Assembly (NCBI GenBank): GCA_903789635.1
Contig: CAIFEY010000023.1
Span: 1 to 46,519 of the forward strand
Reading direction: 5' to 3'
From: an uncultured Eubacteriaceae bacterium
GTDB lineage: Bacteria; Bacillota; Clostridia; Peptostreptococcales; Anaerovoracaceae
DNA length: 46,519 bases
Shown here: one piece after another, positions 14,249 to 36,196 of the stretch
Layout of the letters: every line of letters begins with the position of its first letter
How positions within the stretch are numbered: the first letter of the stretch is position 1
Program-made: the position numbers and the translations under genes
The notes under the pieces: generated by a model
The model's input: the letters and a program-made list of their open reading frames with translations, nothing else
Database searches by the model: none
Told to the model about the DNA's origin: nothing

Positions 14249-15562
14249 TTAGTCTTCGAAAATTGTCTGCTCTGTGACCTCTGTTGTCAGGGCCTTCAGA
14301 GCCTTCTCTACGATATGACGGCGAAGTGCCTTCTCCTCGTCAGGATCCAGTTCCGGATTTCCGAGAGGATGCGGGATCGCAATAGCCGGAACGATTCTGT
14401 TCGCTCCAACTGTCATGGAAATAGGAGTAACCGTGCAGACGTGAACTACCGGCAGACCAGCTCGCTCGATTTCCTTAACCATCGTTGCACCGCAACGCGT
14501 ACAGGTTCCTCAGGTGCTGGTGAGAATAACAGCGTCTACACCGTCATTCTTCAGTTTCTTACCGATCTCCTCTGCGAACTTCTTCGCGGATGCTACAGCG
14601 GTTCCGTTACCGACGGTCGCATAATACTTGTTATGCAGCTTGCCGATAATGCCTTCCTTCTCCATATCGCGGAGGACGTCTACAGGCAGTACGCGGTCTG
14701 CGTCTTCATTCGCATATACCGGGTCGTAACCGCCGTGTGCGGTCTCGTATGTCTCCGGGGTCAGGTCGGTAACGCCGTTGATGTCGTACTCTCCGTAGTG
14801 GGAAGCGGAGGAACTCTCAATGTGGTCCGGATTTCCCTTCGGAACGATTCCGCCGGAGGTAACCAGCGCGATCGTAGCCTTGGACAGGTCCTTAACCGCC
14901 GGGTTAGGAGCGACACGGTCAAAGCTCGGCATCGGATACTCCGTCGTGAACGCCTTTCCGGCCAGCTTCTTCAGCAGCATCTCTACTGCACGCTCGGATC
15001 CTCTCTTCTTCTCGAAGAAGTTTACACGGATTCCGTTCGGCAGGTAGCCTTCCTCGCAGGAAGCGCCGATCTTCTCGCCCTTTCCGAGCTTCAGAGCCAG
15101 CGGAGCGATCTTCTTCATCGCGCCTCTCATGCCTGCTGCGCTGTTCTTAGTTGCGACGATCAGAACCTTGTTCTTGTACATGTCTGCACCAGGGTTCTCC
15201 TCGTACATACCGGTAACGGAAGGAACGCCGAGTTCTTCCTGAACGGCTGCTGCCATGGTTCCGCAGGCAACTCCGTAACGGCCTGCGTTGAATGCCGGAC
15301 CTGCTACGAATACATCAGGCTTCAGCTCCTTGACCATTTCCAGGATGTCCGCTTTTGCTTTGTCAATATTCTCGTTGAAATAGGAATCTCCGCAGACGAT
15401 CGTTCCGACGATCTCTGCCTCATCTCCGAAGTCTTTCTGCAGGGCGAGTCCCGGTCCTACGACCTCTCCCGGTCTGCATTCTGCCGGATAATCAGCCTTT
15501 TCCTCTCCGCCGATCTGAGCGAAGAACTGGTTGATATAGTGAACGACTCTAAGTTTAGCCAT
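14249..15562 (-). CDS. grdB: Glycine reductase component B selenoprotein (Sec351)
   Basis: GrdB is the 47-kDa-type Sec subunit of substrate-specific component B, which attacks the substrate amino group's carbon after Schiff-base formation on the pyruvoyl subunit. The frame is 437 residues with an in-frame TGA at 14510-14512 (residue 351) in ILTSTUGTCTRCGAT, the diagnostic GrdB site; reading it as a stop would split the gene in two. Family blocks such as FVAGPAFNAGRYGVACG and GGIVPKGNPDHIES precede it, and TVGANRIVPAIAIPHPLG follows. It starts 16 bases after grdE. A bacterial SECIS-like hairpin lies just downstream of the TGA. Glycine as substrate is inferred from the glycine riboswitch and the grdX/grdE/grdA context. 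Confidence 0.94.
14483..14512 (-). promoter_or_regulatory. bSECIS-like hairpin of grdB
   Basis: On the minus strand the UGA (14510-14512) is followed 12 bases later by CGUUGC-GGU-GCAACG, a 6-bp stem with a GGU apical loop, at the distance expected for SelB recognition. The surrounding 41 bases (14478-14518) are identical to the second grdB-type gene. Confidence 0.75.
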
Positions 15563-15578: not shown

Positions 15579-16859
15579 TTATCTTGCGCTCAGCTTGTTA
15601 AAGCCCGTCTCGTTGGTCGCGCCGGTGATGACCTGGAGCTCAACTTCCAGAGTTCCGTCCTCACGCAGTGTCTCTTCACTTGCGCCGGCGATCTTATTGA
15701 TGAATGCCATCGTTCCGATAACCTTGTCCAGCTTAGGCAGGATGATTACCTCGTTGGCATTTCCGCCTGTTACTACTGCGTCTGCAGCGGCATCTGCGTC
15801 TGCCAGGGACTGGGACTTTCCATCTCTTCCGGCGTACTCGTCGGTGATGATGACGGTCTTGACGCCCTCAGCCTCGATCTTCTTGCAGTTCATGATCAGG
15901 TCTGTATCCGGGTTTCCGAATCCTTCCTGAGATACGATAACGCCGTCGAGATCCAGCATCTTGCAGAGCTTGGCGGTAAAGTTGGAAGAACGCTCCTTAT
16001 CTGCGAGGTATACGTTCTCGTTCGTGATGATCTGGCATACGAAGTTCAGTGTCTTTCCGTGCTGCTTGAACAGGTCGGTGACTACCGGGTTGTTCTGGTG
16101 AACGTATGTCGGGTTCTTATCGCATGCGGATACGCAGTTTCCGGAGATGATCGCGCCGTCCATTACCTCAGTAGGGCTGAGCAGTGTCGGCAGGATCTTC
16201 TTGGCATCTACGCCGTAAACGTAGGTGTCGTGCAGGAGTCCCTGGCTCTGCAGCATCTGCACATAAGCGACTCTCGGCAGATCCGGATACTTCTCCAGGC
16301 CTTCCTTGATCGTGCATGTCTCGAATACTTCCGTCTCTTCCGGCTCCAGATCTCTTGCGAGCTCGCCGACATAGGTGGCTACGCGGAATCCGGCCATTCT
16401 TACTGCTCTCTCGTAGTCGTGCTGCTTGATTCCCTCAACCGGCTCTACTACCATGCAGAGATTCAGCGTCTTGGAGAACGGTGTGTAGTCAGCGCCCGGG
16501 CCTGTCATATCGATGACACCCTCCTGGAAACCGACGATCGGTCCTGCCGTAACGACGGCCATTCCCTTCAGTGCGTAGGTCTTTCCGGATCCGACTGTGT
16601 CTACCTTAGCGATGACGCCAGGGAATTCCCCTCCGTTGCCTTCAACTTTTACACGCGGTTCGATAACATCCTTGACCGGAGTAATACGTACCGACTCACC
16701 TGGTTTAGCGATATCGAAGCTTGCAGTCTTGAGATGCTCGTCTTCCAGAGCAACCTTGGTCAGTTCATCCTTATTGACATAGAGGACGCCGTCCTGAACC
16801 TTGGACTCATCTGCAAACTGGATATCCTTAATGTAGATATATCCCATTTCCAGTTTCAT
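15579..16859 (-). CDS. grdE: Glycine reductase component B precursor (pyruvoyl proprotein)
   Basis: A 426-residue proprotein cleaved into two subunits, the smaller-chain N-terminus becoming a pyruvoyl group that binds the amine of glycine. The cleavage pair is visible as N241-C242 in SGNCVSACDKN, at the position described for GrdE. The N-terminal domain begins KLEMGYIYIKDIQF and contains FQEGVIDMTGPGADY; the C-terminal domain has VSQEGFGNPDTDL and the EYAGRDGKSQSL loop. AGGAGG precedes the ATG. It lies between grdX and grdB and is presumably co-transcribed from the riboswitch-controlled promoter. Confidence 0.94.
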   Translation of the reverse strand: MKLEMGYIYIKDIQFADESKVQDGVLYVNKDELTKVALEDEHLKTASFDIAKPGESVRITPVKDVIEPRVKVEGNGGEFPGVIAKVDTVGSGKTYALKGMAVVTAGPIVGFQEGVIDMTGPGADYTPFSKTLNLCMVVEPVEGIKQHDYERAVRMAGFRVATYVGELARDLEPEETEVFETCTIKEGLEKYPDLPRVAYVQMLQSQGLLHDTYVYGVDAKKILPTLLSPTEVMDGAIISGNCVSACDKNPTYVHQNNPVVTDLFKQHGKTLNFVCQIITNENVYLADKERSSNFTAKLCKMLDLDGVIVSQEGFGNPDTDLIMNCKKIEAEGVKTVIITDEYAGRDGKSQSLADADAAADAVVTGGNANEVIILPKLDKVIGTMAFINKIAGASEETLREDGTLEVELQVITGATNETGFNKLSAR

Positions 16860-16987: not shown

Positions 16988-17374
16988 TTACAGCCATTCG
17001 TCGGCGGATGACATCCCACTTTCGATCAATGTCATGTCTACCAACTGGAAATCTTTATAAACCCCCGGCTTGTATTCATACGTGCGCTTCTCGAACTTGT
17101 CATAAGTCTCTATGGCCTGCTCGATCAGCCTGATGGAGCGGTCATCTTCCTTCGCGGTTTTCCGCCTGACCAGGAGTGACTTATACGGTGTCTCGTTCGG
17201 TTTCACGCTGCCGGAGAGCGGGTGGGTCAGGAGCTCGTGCCCCTTCAGGATCCAGTCCATCGCTTCCTCCAGGATCTCCCTGTACGATACGTCCTTATAG
17301 ACGACCTCATGAGTATCGCTGAACTTTTCATTGACCATCGGATTGTTTGTAATAATGATATATCCAGTACTCAT
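16988..17374 (-). CDS. grdX: GrdX family protein
   Basis: A 128-residue cytosolic protein of the GrdX family, found at the head of glycine-reductase operons and of unknown biochemical role. It starts STGYIIITNNPMV and has the family segments YREILEEAMDWILKGHELLTHPL and PYKSLLVRR. It is the first gene after the riboswitch terminator, with grdE 128 bases downstream. The ATG at 17374 is preceded by AGGAGG. A broken copy sits at the equivalent place in the second reductase operon. Confidence 0.88.
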   Translation of the reverse strand: MSTGYIIITNNPMVNEKFSDTHEVVYKDVSYREILEEAMDWILKGHELLTHPLSGSVKPNETPYKSLLVRRKTAKEDDRSIRLIEQAIETYDKFEKRTYEYKPGVYKDFQLVDMTLIESGMSSADEWL

Positions 17375-17492: not shown

Positions 17493-17550
17493 TTCTGTCT
17501 GCAATATGAAAGAGGATTTACACCCCTTGCATTCATTCAGAATCCGGTCC

Positions 17551-17637
17551 GTTCTCCGATCCTTTTACCTGAAAGTTTCACGGCATCCGCCGCTTGCCCC
17601 TTCGGTTGCCCCATTAATAGGCGATCTCTCAGAGAAC
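17551..17637 (-). promoter_or_regulatory. Glycine riboswitch aptamer
   Basis: On the minus strand the P1 stem GTTCTC/GAGAAC closes an 87-base aptamer. It contains the hallmark CCGAAGGGGCAA (17594-17605) and AACTTTCAGGTAAAAGGA, matching the glycine riboswitch consensus. One aptamer is visible; a stem GGATT/AATCC follows and may be the usual helper helix of singlet riboswitches. It lies between a good promoter and a terminator ahead of grdX-grdE-grdB, so it should switch the operon on with glycine. Confidence 0.88.
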
Positions 17638-17687
17638 ATCATCCCGTTAGCATAGTATGTATCTATGCATCATCAGATCTCACATTT

Positions 17688-18147: not shown

Positions 18148-19638
18148 TTAAACCTTCTCTGACTTCAGTATCTTCATCAGTGACGCCATCTCCGCAAACA
18201 TGATGAATATGAATGGGAAGGCTGCCACCAGGGAGATGGTCTGCAGCGGTTTCAGTCCGCCAGCCATCATCATTCCGATTGCCATTACAGACTGAATGAC
18301 ACCCCAGATGACCATCTTCTTCTTCGGCGGGTTCTGCGCTCCGTCGCTGGAGAGCATGGAAAGTACGAACGTTCCCGAGTTCGCCGATGTGATAAAGAAT
18401 GTGTTCAGCAGGATAATCGCTACAATTGACAACAATTTAGCAATCGGATAGTGCTGAAGGACTATGAATAGTCCGGTCTCCGGCGCGGCCGCAATCTGTG
18501 CGATCTCTGCGTGGGACAGGATACCGGTTGTTGCCAGGTGCAGTCCGAGGGATCCGTAAATTGCGAACCATACGATAGACATTGCAGCCGGTACGAATAC
18601 AACGCCCAGGATAAACTGACGGATTGTTCTTCCGCGGGAGATTCTCGCGATGAATACGCCTACGAAAGGTGCCCATGCGATGAACCATGCCCAGTAGAAA
18701 ATTCTCCAGTTATAGGTCCAGCTGTTGTCGCCATATCCGTTTACCAGGACGGAATCCTTGATAAAATTCTGAATATACGAAGCAACACCGCCTGTCAGAT
18801 TATTCAGGATCTCAAGCTTAGGTCCGATCAGGAAACCGACGATCATCAGTCCTACGAACAGGTAGAGGTTGACATCCGAGATAACTTTGATGCCCTTCTC
18901 AATTCCGGAAGCCGCAGTCCAGATATATACGACAGAAATCAGAATGATAATGACGATCTGAACCGTCAGGTTGGACGGAAGGCCTACGACCATGTGAAGA
19001 CCCGAGTTAATCTGCATGACACCCAGTCCCAGAGAGGTTACAACGCCTGCGACAGTTGCGAAAACTGCCAGAATATCGACGGCTGTTCCCAGACCGCCCT
19101 TGGCCTTGTCACCCAGCAGCGGAACCAGTGTTGTGCTGACCATTGCGTTCTGCTTCTTGCGGAAGCCGAAGTATGCGAGTGCCAGTCCCATGATTGCGTA
19201 GTTCGCCCACGGGGAGATACCCCAGTGCATATAGGCAGCCTTCATCGCGAAGTTTGCCGCAGCGGTAGTCTCAGGTTTGATTCCCGCAGCCGGACCTGCA
19301 TAGAAGGACATTGGCTCTGCAACTCCCCAGAATACCAGTCCTACGCCCATTCCGCAGCCAAACAGCATCGCGATCCAGGACAGAGTACTGAACTGAGGTT
19401 TTTCTCCATCATCGCCCAGAGTAACTTTGCCGTACTTACTGAAGGCGAGGAAGATACAAAATACTACAAACACGACCATGGCGATACAATACAGCCAGCC
19501 GAAGTCTGTGGTGAAGAAACTGAACAGTGCATTAGCTACGACTGTGAAGTTCGCGTTTGCGAATACAGCCCAAACGGCAATGCACGCACATATAATAAGC
19601 GAGACAATGAAAACAATACTGCTCTTGCTCCGTTTCAT
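18148..19638 (-). CDS. BCCT family betaine/choline/carnitine-type transporter
   Basis: A 496-residue membrane protein with about 12 hydrophobic segments. BCCT signatures are the glycine-rich stretch FGCGMGVGLVFWGVAEP, HWGISPWANYAI, and WAPFVGVFIARISRGRTIRQF with the conserved tryptophan. Such carriers import trimethylammonium compounds such as glycine betaine, carnitine or choline, driven by sodium or proton gradients or by exchange. I take the ATG at 19638; an earlier ATG at 19650 is possible because neither has a strong ribosome site. It follows the grdH-like gene by 151 bases with a large hairpin between them. That link makes betaine, or less likely sarcosine, the best guess for both. Confidence 0.9.
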   Translation of the reverse strand: MKRSKSSIVFIVSLIICACIAVWAVFANANFTVVANALFSFFTTDFGWLYCIAMVVFVVFCIFLAFSKYGKVTLGDDGEKPQFSTLSWIAMLFGCGMGVGLVFWGVAEPMSFYAGPAAGIKPETTAAANFAMKAAYMHWGISPWANYAIMGLALAYFGFRKKQNAMVSTTLVPLLGDKAKGGLGTAVDILAVFATVAGVVTSLGLGVMQINSGLHMVVGLPSNLTVQIVIIILISVVYIWTAASGIEKGIKVISDVNLYLFVGLMIVGFLIGPKLEILNNLTGGVASYIQNFIKDSVLVNGYGDNSWTYNWRIFYWAWFIAWAPFVGVFIARISRGRTIRQFILGVVFVPAAMSIVWFAIYGSLGLHLATTGILSHAEIAQIAAAPETGLFIVLQHYPIAKLLSIVAIILLNTFFITSANSGTFVLSMLSSDGAQNPPKKKMVIWGVIQSVMAIGMMMAGGLKPLQTISLVAAFPFIFIMFAEMASLMKILKSEKV

Positions 19639-19682
19639 ATAAACCCCCATTTCCCGGGGATCCACCATACATGAACAGTACG

Positions 19683-19789: not shown

Positions 19790-21088
19790 TTAAACGCGGA
19801 ATACAGTCTGCTCCTCGACGCCAGTAGCGAGAGCTTCCAGAGCAACGTGTACTCTGTGATAACGAAGCTTCCACTGGTCCTCCTTCGAAGTACCCGGGTC
19901 ACCCAGCGGATACGGGATGGAGATGGTCGGAACGATTCTGTTCGCTCCAACTGTCATAGAAACTGGGACAATATTACACATGTGGACGATCGGAATGCCT
20001 GCACGCTCGATCTCCTTGACCATCGTTGCACCGCAACGCGTACAGGTTCCTCAGGTGCTCACCATGATACAGCCGTCGACATGGTCCTCCTGCAGAAGCG
20101 GAAGGATTTCCTTAGCCATTCTGGCTGCTTCTTTCTCTGTTGTTCCTGTTCCTACTGTGGAGTAGAAATACGGATGCAGTTTTCCGTAAACGCCTTCCTT
20201 TTCCATTGCCTTCATTACGTCGACAGGCATGATGACGTTCGGGTCAGCATTAGCTGCTGCCGGGTCGAATCCTGCGTGAACGGTCTTGAATACGCCGCTC
20301 TCAAGACGATCCATGTCGGAAATGTCGTATTTACCCCAGCGGGTTGCAGATGCAGACTGGATACGGTCCGGGTTGTCTACAGGAACGATACCACCGGTGG
20401 TCAACAGTGCGATGTTGGCCTTGCTGAGGTCAGCGATCGGAGCAGCAACCGGTACACGGTCCATCTTAGGAACGATGAGCTCGGAAGTGTACGGCTCGCC
20501 CGTGATTCTCGCATGGAGCATCTTCATGAAACGGTCAGCAGCGGTCTCCTCGACGAATACCTGATGACGATGTCCGGTTGGGAAGTAGTTCAGCTCATCA
20601 GCAGGGCCGATCGGCTGATCGTTCAGGTAGAGATTTGCCACCTTGCAGACTGCCGGGAGGTCCTTACGCATCTTGGATGCGATGTTTCCGCCCTTCAGGA
20701 TGATGATGTCCTTACGGAACATCTCAACTCCAGGGTTCTCCTGGTTCATTGAGGTTACTACCGGTACTCCGAACTTCTCTTTAACTGCCTTGCAGATTGT
20801 TCCGCATGCAACTCCGTAACGTCCAGCGTTGAATGCCGGTCCTGCAACGAAGATATCGAACTCCAGCGGCTCCAGGAAACCAAGAATCTGATTGACAGCG
20901 TCCTCGGTATTGGTGCCCATATAGTTATCACCACAAATGATGGTGTGTGTTACTTCAGCGTCAAGCTTCTGGTTGTAAGCCATAGCCGGTCCGATCTGAC
21001 CCTCATGAATGGAAGGTCCGACACCTGCTGTGTCCTCACCACCTAACTGGCCGAAGAACTGGTTAACATATACAATGGCTTTTTTCAT
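19790..21088 (-). CDS. grdH: GrdB-family reductase selenoprotein, probably betaine reductase (Sec346)
   Basis: A 432-residue GrdB/GrdF/GrdH-type selenoprotein. The in-frame TGA at 20051-20053 encodes residue 346 in IMVSTUGTCTRCGAT; without it the gene would appear as two pieces. Shared blocks with GrdB are FVAGPAFNAGRYGVACG, GGIVPVDNPDRIQSASATRWG and TVGANRIVP. The rest has diverged, and GYFP/NYFPTGHRHQ-type loops differ. It follows the grdI-like gene by 65 bases and precedes a BCCT carrier. I infer betaine as substrate from the carrier; sarcosine (GrdF) is the alternative, and sequence alone does not decide. Confidence 0.8.
20024..20053 (-). promoter_or_regulatory. bSECIS-like hairpin of the second grdB-type gene
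   Basis: The UGA at 20051-20053 is followed after 12 bases by CGUUGC-GGU-GCAACG. All 41 bases at 20019-20059 are identical to the grdB site, including synonymous positions, while flanking codons have diverged. Confidence 0.75.
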
Positions 21089-21153: not shown

Positions 21154-22479
21154 TTAGAAATCCTTCATGGTCTTGTGGGACCAGCCAACTGTCTGATCTC
21201 CGCAGAAGAGTCCGTTGTCCTCCATCAGGACGGATCCGTCCTCTCTTACAGAAGGTCCGATGTTCTCATCGAAGTCCCATCCGCCGGAGTTTCCGTCTCT
21301 GCCGAGAGCTTCAAGCTCACCCAGTACTGTATCCATAGGAGGAAGCTCGATCAGCTCAGATACGTTTCCTGTGGAAACCATCGCGACGAGTTTCTCGTCC
21401 AGAGTAACCAGCGGCTGAGATGCGCCGTCACGGCCTGTGCACTCGTTTGCTACGCCGACAACCTTGATTCCAGCTGTCTCCAGTGCAGCGATTGCTCCAA
21501 CATAGTCAGCGTCCGGGTTTCCGTAGCCTTCCTCTGTAACCAGAGCGAAGTCAGCGCCGAGCTCTGTAGCCTGCTGAACGATCATCTGGATAACTCTCTC
21601 CTTCTGGTCCATGGCTACGTTGAGGTTCGCCATGATGACGCCGAGGAAGTTGTAATATGTTCCGTCCTCATCCATCAGTCTTCTCAGGATCGGGAAGTTC
21701 TGGAAGTCATATGTGGACCACTTGGAGGAGCACGGCATGAAGGATCCGCTTACCAGCGCACCGTCCAGGATTTCCTGCGGGCTCATCAGAGTCGGCAGAT
21801 AGTGGTTCATGTCCCATCCGTAGATCAGGTCGTTGTATCCCATAGCCTCCATCTGAGACTGCGGCTGAAGTACTGCTACTACAGACGGCAGATCGTTGAT
21901 CTCCTGCGGTCTCTTGGTGATCGGCGTCGTCTCGTAAACATCGGTGTCCTCAGGAGTGAGCTCCTTTACGCACTTTCCGATGTATCCTGCCAGCTTGTGG
22001 CCTGCACGGCGGAGTGCGTCGTTCATCTTCTGCTGCTCATGCTTCTCGAACTCTTCGTTGGTATCTGCTACCAGAACGATGTTGTTCAGTTCACCGAAGT
22101 GTGTGAGCTTCTGTCCCGGGCCGCTCATGTCGATGAGTCCGTCCTGGAATCCGCCCCAGTGTCTTCCGACTACCAGTACGCTGCAGTTCTTGAGCGCGTG
22201 GAGTGTTCCGTTTCCGGACTGTCTCAGGTCGTCCGTGTAACCCGGGAATAATCCCTCTCCGTCTGTGCGGACTCTAGGCTCGATTGCCTCCTTGACCGGT
22301 GTCATTCTGATGGAATCTCCCGGCTTGGCAATGTAGAGTTCAGCTTCCGTAATTCTGTCGTCTTCGCGGACAAAGTTCAGGGCGTCTTCCTTATTGATAG
22401 TCAAAATGCCATCCTTGAAAGACAATTCATCCCCGAACACAATATCCTTGACGTAGAAATTACCAATTTCCAATTTCAT
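21154..22479 (-). CDS. grdI: GrdE-like component B proprotein, probably betaine-specific
   Basis: A 441-residue paralogue of GrdE (KLEIGNFYVKDIVFGDE, FQDGLIDMSGPGQKL, VTEEGYGNPDADY, ECTGRDGASQPL). At the alignment position of GrdE's cleavage pair N241-C242 it has S246-F247, in GALVSGSFMPCSSKW, and the nearest cysteine is C250. Pyruvoyl formation would therefore need a different cleavage point, perhaps before C250, or be absent. It also carries a C-terminal extension of about 25 residues ending WSHKTMKDF. AGGAGG precedes the ATG, and the leader just upstream closely resembles that of grdE. It forms a pair with the following Sec subunit; betaine versus sarcosine specificity is inferred from the neighbouring BCCT gene. 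Confidence 0.8.
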   Translation of the reverse strand: MKLEIGNFYVKDIVFGDELSFKDGILTINKEDALNFVREDDRITEAELYIAKPGDSIRMTPVKEAIEPRVRTDGEGLFPGYTDDLRQSGNGTLHALKNCSVLVVGRHWGGFQDGLIDMSGPGQKLTHFGELNNIVLVADTNEEFEKHEQQKMNDALRRAGHKLAGYIGKCVKELTPEDTDVYETTPITKRPQEINDLPSVVAVLQPQSQMEAMGYNDLIYGWDMNHYLPTLMSPQEILDGALVSGSFMPCSSKWSTYDFQNFPILRRLMDEDGTYYNFLGVIMANLNVAMDQKERVIQMIVQQATELGADFALVTEEGYGNPDADYVGAIAALETAGIKVVGVANECTGRDGASQPLVTLDEKLVAMVSTGNVSELIELPPMDTVLGELEALGRDGNSGGWDFDENIGPSVREDGSVLMEDNGLFCGDQTVGWSHKTMKDF

Positions 22480-22607
22480 ATCTGTTTCCCTCCTTTTACA
22501 GAAGATAAAAATGTAGGCGATTAATTGGTCTTGAGTAATGTTTAGATTGAATATTGATTCTGTGATAATATAGGCAATATTCGGGCTGCAAATCTACACG
22601 CGGTAAG

Positions 22608-22800
22608 TTCACAGCCGCTAGTCGGCGGCCGGCATGCCGCTTTCGGCCGATGCCTCGTCTCCCGACTGGAAATCCTTCAACCCCTCGGTTTATATTCACC
22701 TGTACGATGCCGTTGCAGACGACCTCATGAGCGTTGCCGGACTTTTCACTTGACCATCGGATTATCGTTAATTAACTATAATGATACATCCAGCACTCAC
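22608..22800 (-). pseudogene. Remnant of grdX in the duplicated operon
   Basis: Nucleotides here align with both ends of the intact grdX: the start side near 22740-22800 (ACTTTTCA-TTGACCATCGGATT) and the stop side near 22608-22690 (GACTGGAAATC). About half the gene is deleted in between, the start ATG has become GTG, and the stop codon and frame are lost. Flanking leader bases up to the riboswitch-like element and down to the grdI-like start are also recognisably duplicated. Confidence 0.8.
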
Positions 22801-22872
22801 AACGTCTTATTCCTACTGAGAGGTACGGTAAGACGCGAGGCTCTCTGCGCGTCTTCGCACATCTGATGAAAG

Positions 22873-22918
22873 AAAAAGGGGCCGTACCAACAGGCGCTCT
22901 AACTCCTGCGATTGTCCC
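22873..22918 (-). terminator. Terminator of the diverged riboswitch copy
   Basis: On the minus strand GGGACAATCGCAGG pairs with CCTGTTGGTACGGCCCC less perfectly than in the first copy, some pairs being kept as G-U, and is followed by TTTTTC. Confidence 0.6.
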
Positions 22919-22975
22919 TTCTGCCTGCAGAATGAAAGAGTATTACATTTCTTTCATTCATTCAGAATTCGGTCC

Positions 22976-23057
22976 GTTCTCCGATCCCGTTCCGGAAAGA
23001 TTCACAGCGTCTGCCGCCCCATCCGGTTGTCACATATTTGACGATCTCACGGAAAAC
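22976..23057 (-). promoter_or_regulatory. Diverged glycine-riboswitch-like element
   Basis: This 82-base element is homologous to the aptamer upstream of grdX. The closing stem persists as GTTTTC/GAGAAC through a G-U pair, and ATCGGAGAACGGACC is unchanged. The ligand core has changed: CCGAAGGGGCAA has become CCGGATGGGGCGG, and CAGGTAAAAGGA has become CCGGAACGGGA. It stands between a conserved promoter and a terminator, ahead of the grdI/grdH operon. It may be a decayed switch or one with altered ligand. Confidence 0.75.
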
Positions 23058-23086
23058 TTCATCCCACTGGTTCAGATTTCACATCA

Positions 23087-23115
23087 ATAATATCAATCCG
23101 TTAATTAATAGTCAA
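23087..23115 (-). promoter_or_regulatory. Promoter of the grdI-grdH operon
   Basis: On the minus strand TTGACT and TATTAT are 17 bases apart, at the same distance from the riboswitch-like element as in the first copy. Confidence 0.7.
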
Positions 23116-23156
23116 TAGATATGGCTTATATTTCGTTTCGTAATCGTGATTATTAA

Positions 23157-23197
23157 AAACATGATTAGAATTATGTATATATATTCTAATCATGTTT
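23157..23197. repeat. 15-bp AT-rich inverted repeat
   Basis: AAACATGATTAGAAT and ATTCTAATCATGTTT are perfect inverted repeats separated by 11 bases, 40 bases upstream of the grdI operon promoter. It may be an operator or an auxiliary terminator. Confidence 0.7.
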
Positions 23198-23228
23198 AAA
23201 AAATATTCCACAATCGGCACGAAAATCA

Positions 23229-23385: not shown

Positions 23386-24018
23386 TTAATCCACTGCCGG
23401 GTAATACGTGTCGTCCGGGTAGAGGATGTCCACGACCTGATCCTTCGTGATCTCCCAGATGTTTCCGCAGACGTGCCACGGCGACCAGGTGTCGATCTGG
23501 AAGATGCGCTCCCAGCTGTCCCTGATCCGCTGCTCCTCCTCCGGGAACTGCCCCGCGTGCTTTCCCTGCATAATCTGAAAGCTGCTCGCGATTCCGAGCT
23601 CGTGGATATGCCTGCGGTAGGCCTCCTCGTCCTCCGGATCCTTAGGCAGGTAGATGCGGTTCAGGACGTAGTCCCACTTTCCGTCGTCGAAGAAACAGAT
23701 CTTCTCGCGCGGGACGTCGATGACGTAGGCTACGGTCCCCGGGATCGGGCGCAGGCAGTTTTCCTTGCACACGGAGCACCAGATCGGCGCGTGCACGTCG
23801 TCCGGCTTCGGCACGATCTTGGCGACGCGTTCGGTCAGCCAGTCGTAGCTCTCCAGGAAAAGCGGAGCCACGTCGCCCAGGTGAAGCTCCACGTAGATTC
23901 GCTGGTTGATGATTCTGCCGTCATGCTCCAGCTGATTGAGTGTCTTGTCGTTCTGGCGGGTGTACAGGCGGACGACCGGTTTGCTCGTCAGCTCGATAAT
24001 ATCCTTTTCCGTGATCAT
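23386..24018 (-). CDS. DUF3841-like protein
   Basis: A 210-residue soluble protein with the pattern of DUF3841: VRLYTRQ near the N-terminus, FLESYDWLTERV, PIWCSV, a central FFDDGKWDYVLNRIYLP and a C-terminal RDSWERIFQID...VVDIL. No function is known. It contains five cysteines, two in CSVCKENC (about 81-88), which could bind a metal. It is alone between the trxA terminator and its own terminator, so it needs a promoter in the short gap at 24019-24036 or readthrough. Context gives no clear role in the reductase pathway. Confidence 0.7.
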   Translation of the reverse strand: MITEKDIIELTSKPVVRLYTRQNDKTLNQLEHDGRIINQRIYVELHLGDVAPLFLESYDWLTERVAKIVPKPDDVHAPIWCSVCKENCLRPIPGTVAYVIDVPREKICFFDDGKWDYVLNRIYLPKDPEDEEAYRRHIHELGIASSFQIMQGKHAGQFPEEEQRIRDSWERIFQIDTWSPWHVCGNIWEITKDQVVDILYPDDTYYPAVD

Positions 24019-36099: not shown

Positions 36100-36196
36100 T
36101 GGCGGGAGTATGTGGGAATTGAACCCACCCGAGAGGCTCCTAACCCCTCACATTGGTTTTGAAGACCAAGAGGCACACCAGCACCTATCTACCCCC
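36100..36196 (-). tRNA. selC: tRNA-Sec (anticodon UCA)
   Basis: On the minus strand a 97-base tRNA runs from GGGGGTAGATAGG to ATACTCCCGCCA with encoded CCA. The anticodon loop CTTCAAA carries UCA. It has a long acceptor stem, an extended variable arm (GTGAGGGGTTAGGAGCCTCTC) and a T arm GGTTCAATTCC, as expected for bacterial tRNA-Sec. A perfect promoter precedes it and a terminator follows, so it is transcribed on its own. Confidence 0.96.

Follow-up and report, generated by a model that had tools for sequence, protein, structure and literature searches.

A diverged paralogue of a glycine riboswitch before a betaine-reductase operon, probably a decaying duplicate of its neighbour

On the minus strand of a 46,519-nucleotide stretch of DNA from an uncultured Eubacteriaceae bacterium (hereafter the window, meaning this whole stretch), two reductase operons adjoin, grdI-grdH-BCCT upstream and grdX-grdG-grdF downstream. 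Each has a leader made of a promoter of the form TTGAC[TG]-17-TATTAT, an aptamer region and a terminator. The aptamer before the downstream operon (copy 1) is a canonical glycine riboswitch; the one before the upstream operon (copy 2) has an altered core. This arrangement raises the question of whether copy 2 still senses glycine, has turned to another ligand or has been left to decay. We consider it probable that copy 2 is a decaying duplicate of the neighbouring glycine riboswitch in which glycine sensing is no longer selected.

The two operons and their leaders

The genes of both operons and the leader of the downstream one were assigned as follows.

21154-22479, minus strand: grdI, betaine reductase component B subunit (PF09338, 574.9 bits)
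20051-21088, minus strand: grdH, betaine reductase selenoprotein B, up to its in-frame UGA (NF040795, 576.8 bits over this part, below the full-length cut-off of 775)
20013-20050: SECIS_4 element after the grdH UGA (58 bits)
18148-19668, minus strand: BCCT-family transporter (NF047988, 616.2 bits, cut-off 650; TIGR00842, 482.8 bits, above cut-off)
17716-17688, minus strand: copy 1 promoter, TTGACG-17-TATTAT (consensus scan)
17542-17645, minus strand: copy 1, glycine riboswitch aptamer before grdX-grdG-grdF (sarcosine reductase; RF00504, 55.7 bits)
16988-17374, minus strand: intact grdX behind copy 1 (NF038093, 123.8 bits, above cut-off)
15579-16859, minus strand: grdG (best NCBIfam match, below curated cut-off)
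14510-15562, minus strand: grdF, up to a UGA followed by a SECIS_4 element (best NCBIfam match, below curated cut-off)

The name grdI was taken from its grdH partner, as the best NCBIfam match of the gene itself is GrdG at 326.4 bits, short of the cut-off of 780; the name sarcosine reductase follows the best NCBIfam matches of grdG and grdF, both under their curated cut-offs. For grdH the best-matching model is that of the betaine GrdH, and for the BCCT transporter that of a glycine-betaine BCCT protein; the transporter probably carries glycine betaine. Compared with its counterpart in Lachnospiraceae bacterium JC7, grdI had a dN of 0.049 and a dS of about 2.5 (saturated), showing that purifying selection acts on grdI. 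Since the operon is under purifying selection, as shown for grdI, it should be expressed somehow.

Several other features of the surroundings were recorded. Immediately 5' of the grdI operon, and in its orientation, comes a DUF3841 gene (23386-24018); similar-looking genes, compared by eye, seem to precede grdI at two other loci (L039 and L044). The window that holds both selenoprotein reductases also carries a tRNA-Sec gene (36104-36196, 72.3 bits). Across the two contigs of this genome with PF09338 matches (C23 and C11), grdG and grdI gave the only strong full-length ones, four further, weaker matches all being on C11; a dedicated glycine reductase GrdE may be absent from this genome, which is 97.9% complete. 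Contig C11 also holds another glycine riboswitch (L002, 1501-1635, 38.5 bits). It precedes a long open frame that, as we read it, may encode an amino-acid permease.

Copy 1 passed the RF00504 threshold of 32 bits, its match to that model spanning 17547-17641. The best model of the clan for it was RF03166 (glycine-GGAnGA) at 56.5 bits, below that model's cut-off of 110. We also used a covariance model, R1, made from 13 homologous grd-leader aptamers (alignment A1) that include copy 1 and exclude copy 2; the 77.8 bits that copy 1 scored with R1 are those of a member of the model. The parts of the copy 2 leader are listed below.

23115-23087, minus strand: promoter, TTGACT-17-TATTAT, with TG before the -10 box (consensus scan)
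22976-23057, minus strand: copy 2, diverged glycine-aptamer paralogue with altered core (R1 model, pairwise alignment)
22992-23026, minus strand: remodelled P3, CCGGA ... TCCGG (minimum-free-energy fold and alignment)
22968-22990, minus strand: P1 3' strand and linker, predicted by folding to pair with the P1 5' strand or to fold on itself (anti-P1 hairpin)
22868-22922, minus strand: intrinsic terminator, a hairpin of about -15.3 kcal/mol followed by TTTTTC
22609-22800, minus strand: grdX pseudogene with a large internal deletion, its pieces in three frames with stops

The first-pass annotation of this DNA had described copy 2 as a homologue of the canonical aptamer in which the switch parts are kept and the core is changed, and this description proved accurate. 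R1 found copy 2 with 32.9 bits and an E-value of 2.4e-7 (match 22967-23065), so the homology of the two copies is beyond chance. The given boundaries coincide exactly with the two P1 strands, GTTTTCCG on the 5' side and CGGAGAAC on the 3' side, and the flank ATCGGAGAACGGACC is unchanged between the copies. The promoters, with the same boxes and 17-base spacing, have 26 of 29 bases in common; the linker region is the same at 29 of 30 bases (17530-17559 in copy 1 numbering); and the terminator is kept in form, with 38 of 43 bases shared and a hairpin of -15.3 kcal/mol against -17.8 in copy 1. From copy 1 to copy 2 the core changes from CCGAAGGGGCAA to CCGGATGGGGCGG and from CAGGTAAAAGGA to CCGGAACGGGA.

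When both elements were scored with RF00504, as had been proposed, copy 2 gave no match in a search of its own genome, against 55.7 bits for copy 1. No Rfam model matched copy 2 in the window or in a 271-base stretch at E-values up to 10, RF03166 included, and an R1 search found no second aptamer in the copy 2 leader. The conserved glycine core (CCGAAG, GCAA, CAGG...GGA) is not intact in copy 2: CCGAA and CAGG, constant in the 13 aligned homologues, are both altered, and two invariant As, of the GCAA in copy 1, are deleted. The annotation had called the changed core bases near-invariant, which in those 13 holds for CCGAA and CAGG but fails for the GAAACT segment, as this varies in natural grd-leader aptamers. 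Its proposal that glycine sensing was lost gained support, with five sites that are invariant in 13 of 13 homologues changed or deleted and Rfam's glycine models silent, and the copy 2 RNA probably no longer switches with glycine. That copy 2 might be a divergent but ordinary glycine riboswitch, still binding glycine weakly, seems to us very improbable: the homology is clear and natural grd-leader glycine-type aptamers accept GAATC or GATGATC for GAAAC, but these losses in CCGAA, CAGG and GCAA, and the failure of the Rfam glycine models to recognise copy 2, speak against it.

We also noted a natural core variant among other leaders. In a regular-expression search of 53 loci, GATGATCTCAGG stood in place of GAAACTTTCAGG in 11 of 24 distinct glycine-type aptamers (L020, L025, L026, L028, L030, L132, L134 and L136-L139), eight of which have grdX or grdG within 1.5 kb downstream; at L020, L025, L026 and L030 the variant is followed by another aptamer, which carries GAAACT or GAATCT. 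Because this variant recurs in several genera, it would be a better candidate than copy 2 for altered ligand recognition.

Block duplication and divergence of the copied aptamer

Global alignment showed that the homology between the two leaders extends from 5' of the promoter through the ribosome-binding site and the first codons of grdG/grdI. The duplicated block comprises about 680 bases (about 22480-23157 in copy 2), grdX included; identity is 73% across one span of 490 bases and 75% across another of 221. In copy 2 the grdX is a pseudogene, as seen in the DNA alignment, in three-frame translation and in tblastn pieces in frames 1, 2 and 3. The pattern is that of a decayed duplicate, with copy 1 intact by model score and the grdX next to copy 2 broken. 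This leader DNA was found nowhere beyond copies 1 and 2, either in the same genome (531 bases searched) or in 197 family genomes (201 bases searched). In a genome of the same genus (G093), a canonical riboswitch precedes grdX-grdG, and grdI lies on a different contig, preceded by an operator-type promoter. Given this layout and the absence of the leader DNA from the other 196 family genomes, the arrangement of copies 1 and 2 seems to be confined to this lineage.

The sequence of events that we propose begins with duplication, in this lineage, of the sarcosine-reductase leader, that is promoter, single glycine aptamer, terminator, grdX and ribosome-binding site. Copy 1 would be the original and copy 2 the duplicate, which the alignment places directly before grdI-grdH-BCCT. 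The copied grdX then died, and conserved sites of the aptamer core were lost at the pace of the rest of the block, as the sequences show.

The pace of divergence was gauged against reference segments (upstream sequence, post-terminator leader, grdX remains and intergenic DNA), which were identical at 312 of 404 ungapped columns and are not strictly neutral because the grdX of copy 1 is constrained. The aptamer core alone stood at this reference level (50 of 65 ungapped columns identical), as did the core with the P1 5' strand (56 of 73, p 0.88). By change or deletion, copy 2 had lost 5 of the 23 sites at which all 13 homologues agree and 2 of 9 near-invariant ones, compared with 18 of the 72 remaining sites; the conserved core has thus been without protection, its divergence keeping pace with that of the block around it.

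Other parts of the leader stand against decay. The promoter, the P1 3' strand with linker and the terminator are together conserved above the rest (93 of 102 columns against 312 of 404, p 0.0013), although taken singly only the linker (29 of 30) differed clearly from the reference (p 0.004; promoter p 0.16, terminator p 0.12). An intact terminator without a working sensor should harm expression, so decay of the terminator would be expected. Among the 28 pairs of the copy 1 structure, 20 are unchanged in copy 2 and six of the eight changed ones still pair, two of them, in P2, through double changes; the two broken pairs both sit in P3a. Having at most two broken pairs had a probability of 0.002 when all substitutions were placed randomly on copy 2 and of 0.068 when half of the changes were put on the lineage of copy 1 under constraint, and having as many as six changed-but-pairing pairs had a probability of 0.089. 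In P3a, the changes A47G, G49U and A79C (copy 1 numbering, A1) are jointly predicted to convert what in copy 1 is an internal loop of the conserved core into a continuous 5-bp helix, CCGGA/UCCGG. The kept stems and switch parts would be better explained than by decay if the leader had kept a structural role or had been given a new ligand.

In the first of these two cases, ligand binding would be lost and the leader still used, a ligand-independent P3 fold, the P1/anti-P1 hairpin and the terminator acting together as a fixed attenuator that sets a constant level of grdI-grdH. The joint conservation of promoter, P1 3' strand and terminator, the retained stem pairs and the continuous helix in the fold all favour such a role. 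The folding results do not: P1 is less stable than in copy 1, and its pairing probability in the full leader is 0.06 (copy 1, 0.97). Folded in isolation, copy 2 does not surpass its shuffles in stability (z-score -0.26; copy 1, -2.98), nor does it surpass simulated neutral copies, of which 25.7% in a set of 600 folded at least as stably. We therefore regard a fixed attenuator as doubtful. The minimum-free-energy fold of isolated copy 2 does display P1, P2 and P3. In the full leader, the 5' strand of the terminator was predicted to pair downstream with a probability of 0.92 in copy 2 and 0.77 in copy 1; in silico the terminator dominates the copy 2 leader, and termination would be its default state.

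The annotation had further argued that the retained switch parts speak against simple decay. This argument keeps some force through the better-conserved switch parts and the stem pairs, and loses some because the grdX copied along with them is dead and the fold shows no added stability.

Relatives and control of the grdI operon

In the second case, the altered core would bind betaine, sarcosine, dimethylglycine or another ligand, which would stabilise P1, prevent termination and so let the betaine-reductase operon be turned on by its own substrate. The position of copy 2 before a betaine operon, the kept switch parts with stems held partly by double changes, and a default of termination in silico, which an on-switch would need, are all in keeping with this. 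Among relatives, we searched 91 other grdI loci (11 from family genomes and 80 from further genome contigs); in 86 of them the sequence before grdI spans at least 700 bases, sufficient to reach a leader placed like copy 2. None of the 91 had a glycine-riboswitch match near grdI at E-values up to 5. A weak hit (E 1.2) lay about 2 kb upstream of one grdI, on the opposite strand, and five extra stretches in the searched set gave matches in two sarcosine-type ones (L117 once, L119 twice). The closest GrdI relative, that of JC7 (L037), is 93% identical and uninformative on the leader, because its contig begins 16 bases before grdI.

The covariation expected of a conserved altered core could not be found, as no relative with that core turned up, and the suggestion that the RNA may have shifted ligand, here to betaine or sarcosine, drew no support from the 91 grdI loci and 197 family genomes. 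No match was found in the other grdI loci, nor the leader DNA in the other 196 family genomes; the core changed at the background rate, the grdX in the same block is dead, and there is no stability signal. On these grounds we think a switch with a new ligand unlikely. That copy 2 has been caught in the act of retargeting, its closed P3 core recognising a methylated glycine and its old switching parts still working, is a comparably improbable form of the idea.

Other searches were made with broader means. At least 233 of 349 family genomes matched R1. A loose pattern for the remodelled core, tried as a finder of relatives, matched 87 of the 349 and was dropped as too unspecific; none of the 10 loci listed for it had an R1 match. 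A pattern match from the same genus that shares TGTGAATCTTTCCGG sits inside a 520-residue open frame, and a scan of viral contigs with a 16-mer hit two places, both unrelated.

If copy 2 is, as we favour, a decaying duplicate, control of the operon would lie at the level of the promoter. Within 400 bases before grdI, a palindrome within two mismatches of ATAATCRYGATTAT or ATAAGCRYGCTTAT was found in 59 of the 89 relatives with at least 150 bases upstream, and was absent in 30; shuffles averaged 2.3 such loci and never exceeded 5, and exact sites occurred in 29 real loci. This operator is a strong signal in relatives. At copy 2, three features stand out upstream of or within the leader.

23140-23153: operator-like palindrome ATAATCACGATTAC, one mismatch to ATAATCRYGATTAT
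22761-22782: 22-bp near-perfect palindrome ATTATAGTTAATTAACGATAAT, inside the copy 2 grdX pseudogene and absent from copy 1
22802-22775: promoter-like TTGTGA-16-TATAGT, downstream of the terminator, its -10 covered by ATTATAGTTAATTAACGATAAT

ATAATCACGATTAC lies 24 bases upstream of the -35 box of copy 2, and when the 200 bases upstream were shuffled, a site as good arose in 3 of 1000 cases. A weaker version, with two mismatches, lies upstream of copy 1 (25 of 1000 shuffles as good). Of 15 other sarcosine-type leaders, none had the operator within 200 bases and one had it within 400. As the operator is found in grdI relatives and is rare in sarcosine-type leaders, the copied block thus has a betaine-type operator at its upstream edge, and by its sequence this may act at copy 2. 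Even with two mismatches allowed, the window contains no TAAGCGCGCTTA, the operator form seen in the closest relatives; it matches the ATAATC form, with nine sites within three mismatches of ATAATCATGATTAT against 1.33 expected, three of them at 23140-23199 and six elsewhere.

Just outside the copied block, a long inverted repeat (23155-23199, AAACATGATTAGAAT ... ATTCTAATCATGTTT) contains two operator-like half sites and is possibly what remains of the ancestral operator region of grdI. At the grdI locus of Merdimonas faecis, a divergently encoded protein is, as we read its sequence, TetR-like. The genome studied here has six matches to a TetR-like protein, the best 33% identical and none on the contig of the window; these are at most candidates for binding the operator.

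Added control might come from the putative new promoter with its palindrome in the dead grdX, past the terminator. ATTATAGTTAATTAACGATAAT consists partly of a 7-base insertion that copy 1 is without, and none of 500 shuffles reached 10 of 11 matching positions, for a palindrome picked by eye before testing. A search of the genome at up to three mismatches gave no second ATTATAGTTAATTAACGATAAT site, making a dedicated repressor less likely. This stretch is rich in promoter-like sites (21 against 8.1 expected), so the inner promoter is a lead only. Both the operator and this promoter are so far sequence matches.

Comparison with known systems

As a decaying duplicate, copy 2 would show, on a small scale but clearly, how block duplication can carry a riboswitch to a new operon where it is later given up; the dead grdX that travelled with it serves as an internal clock. 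Were the retargeting true, a genome with parent and daughter RNA side by side would offer a direct system for studying ligand change in riboswitches. We found no report of this locus in the literature searched, most subscription papers lying outside that search.

Variant riboswitch classes with altered ligand specificity rest on many aligned sequences and binding tests. They would be the fitting class if the ligand of copy 2 had changed, whereas copy 2 is one sequence with no relatives found. With RF00504 and copy 1 it shares a common origin, the same promoter, the GGATGA...GGAC flank, P1, P2, P3b, the 3' linker and the layout of the terminator; it differs in that core positions in CCGAAG, GCAA and CAGG are changed or deleted, the P3 loop is closed and Rfam gives no match, and in standing before a betaine-reductase operon where copy 1 stands before a sarcosine one. 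The GGATGA motif of the glycine-GGAnGA riboswitch (RF03166) is kept, yet that model does not match copy 2.

A precedent exists in the ghost aptamers: PMC6944388, which also cites variant glycine riboswitches from Weinberg et al. 2017, proposes that a single glycine riboswitch comes about when one member of a tandem pair degrades into a ghost aptamer. That ghost still assists a working aptamer within its own RNA, whereas the copy 2 leader is without a second aptamer match; the two have in common a lost ligand pocket and a retained P1-like pairing.
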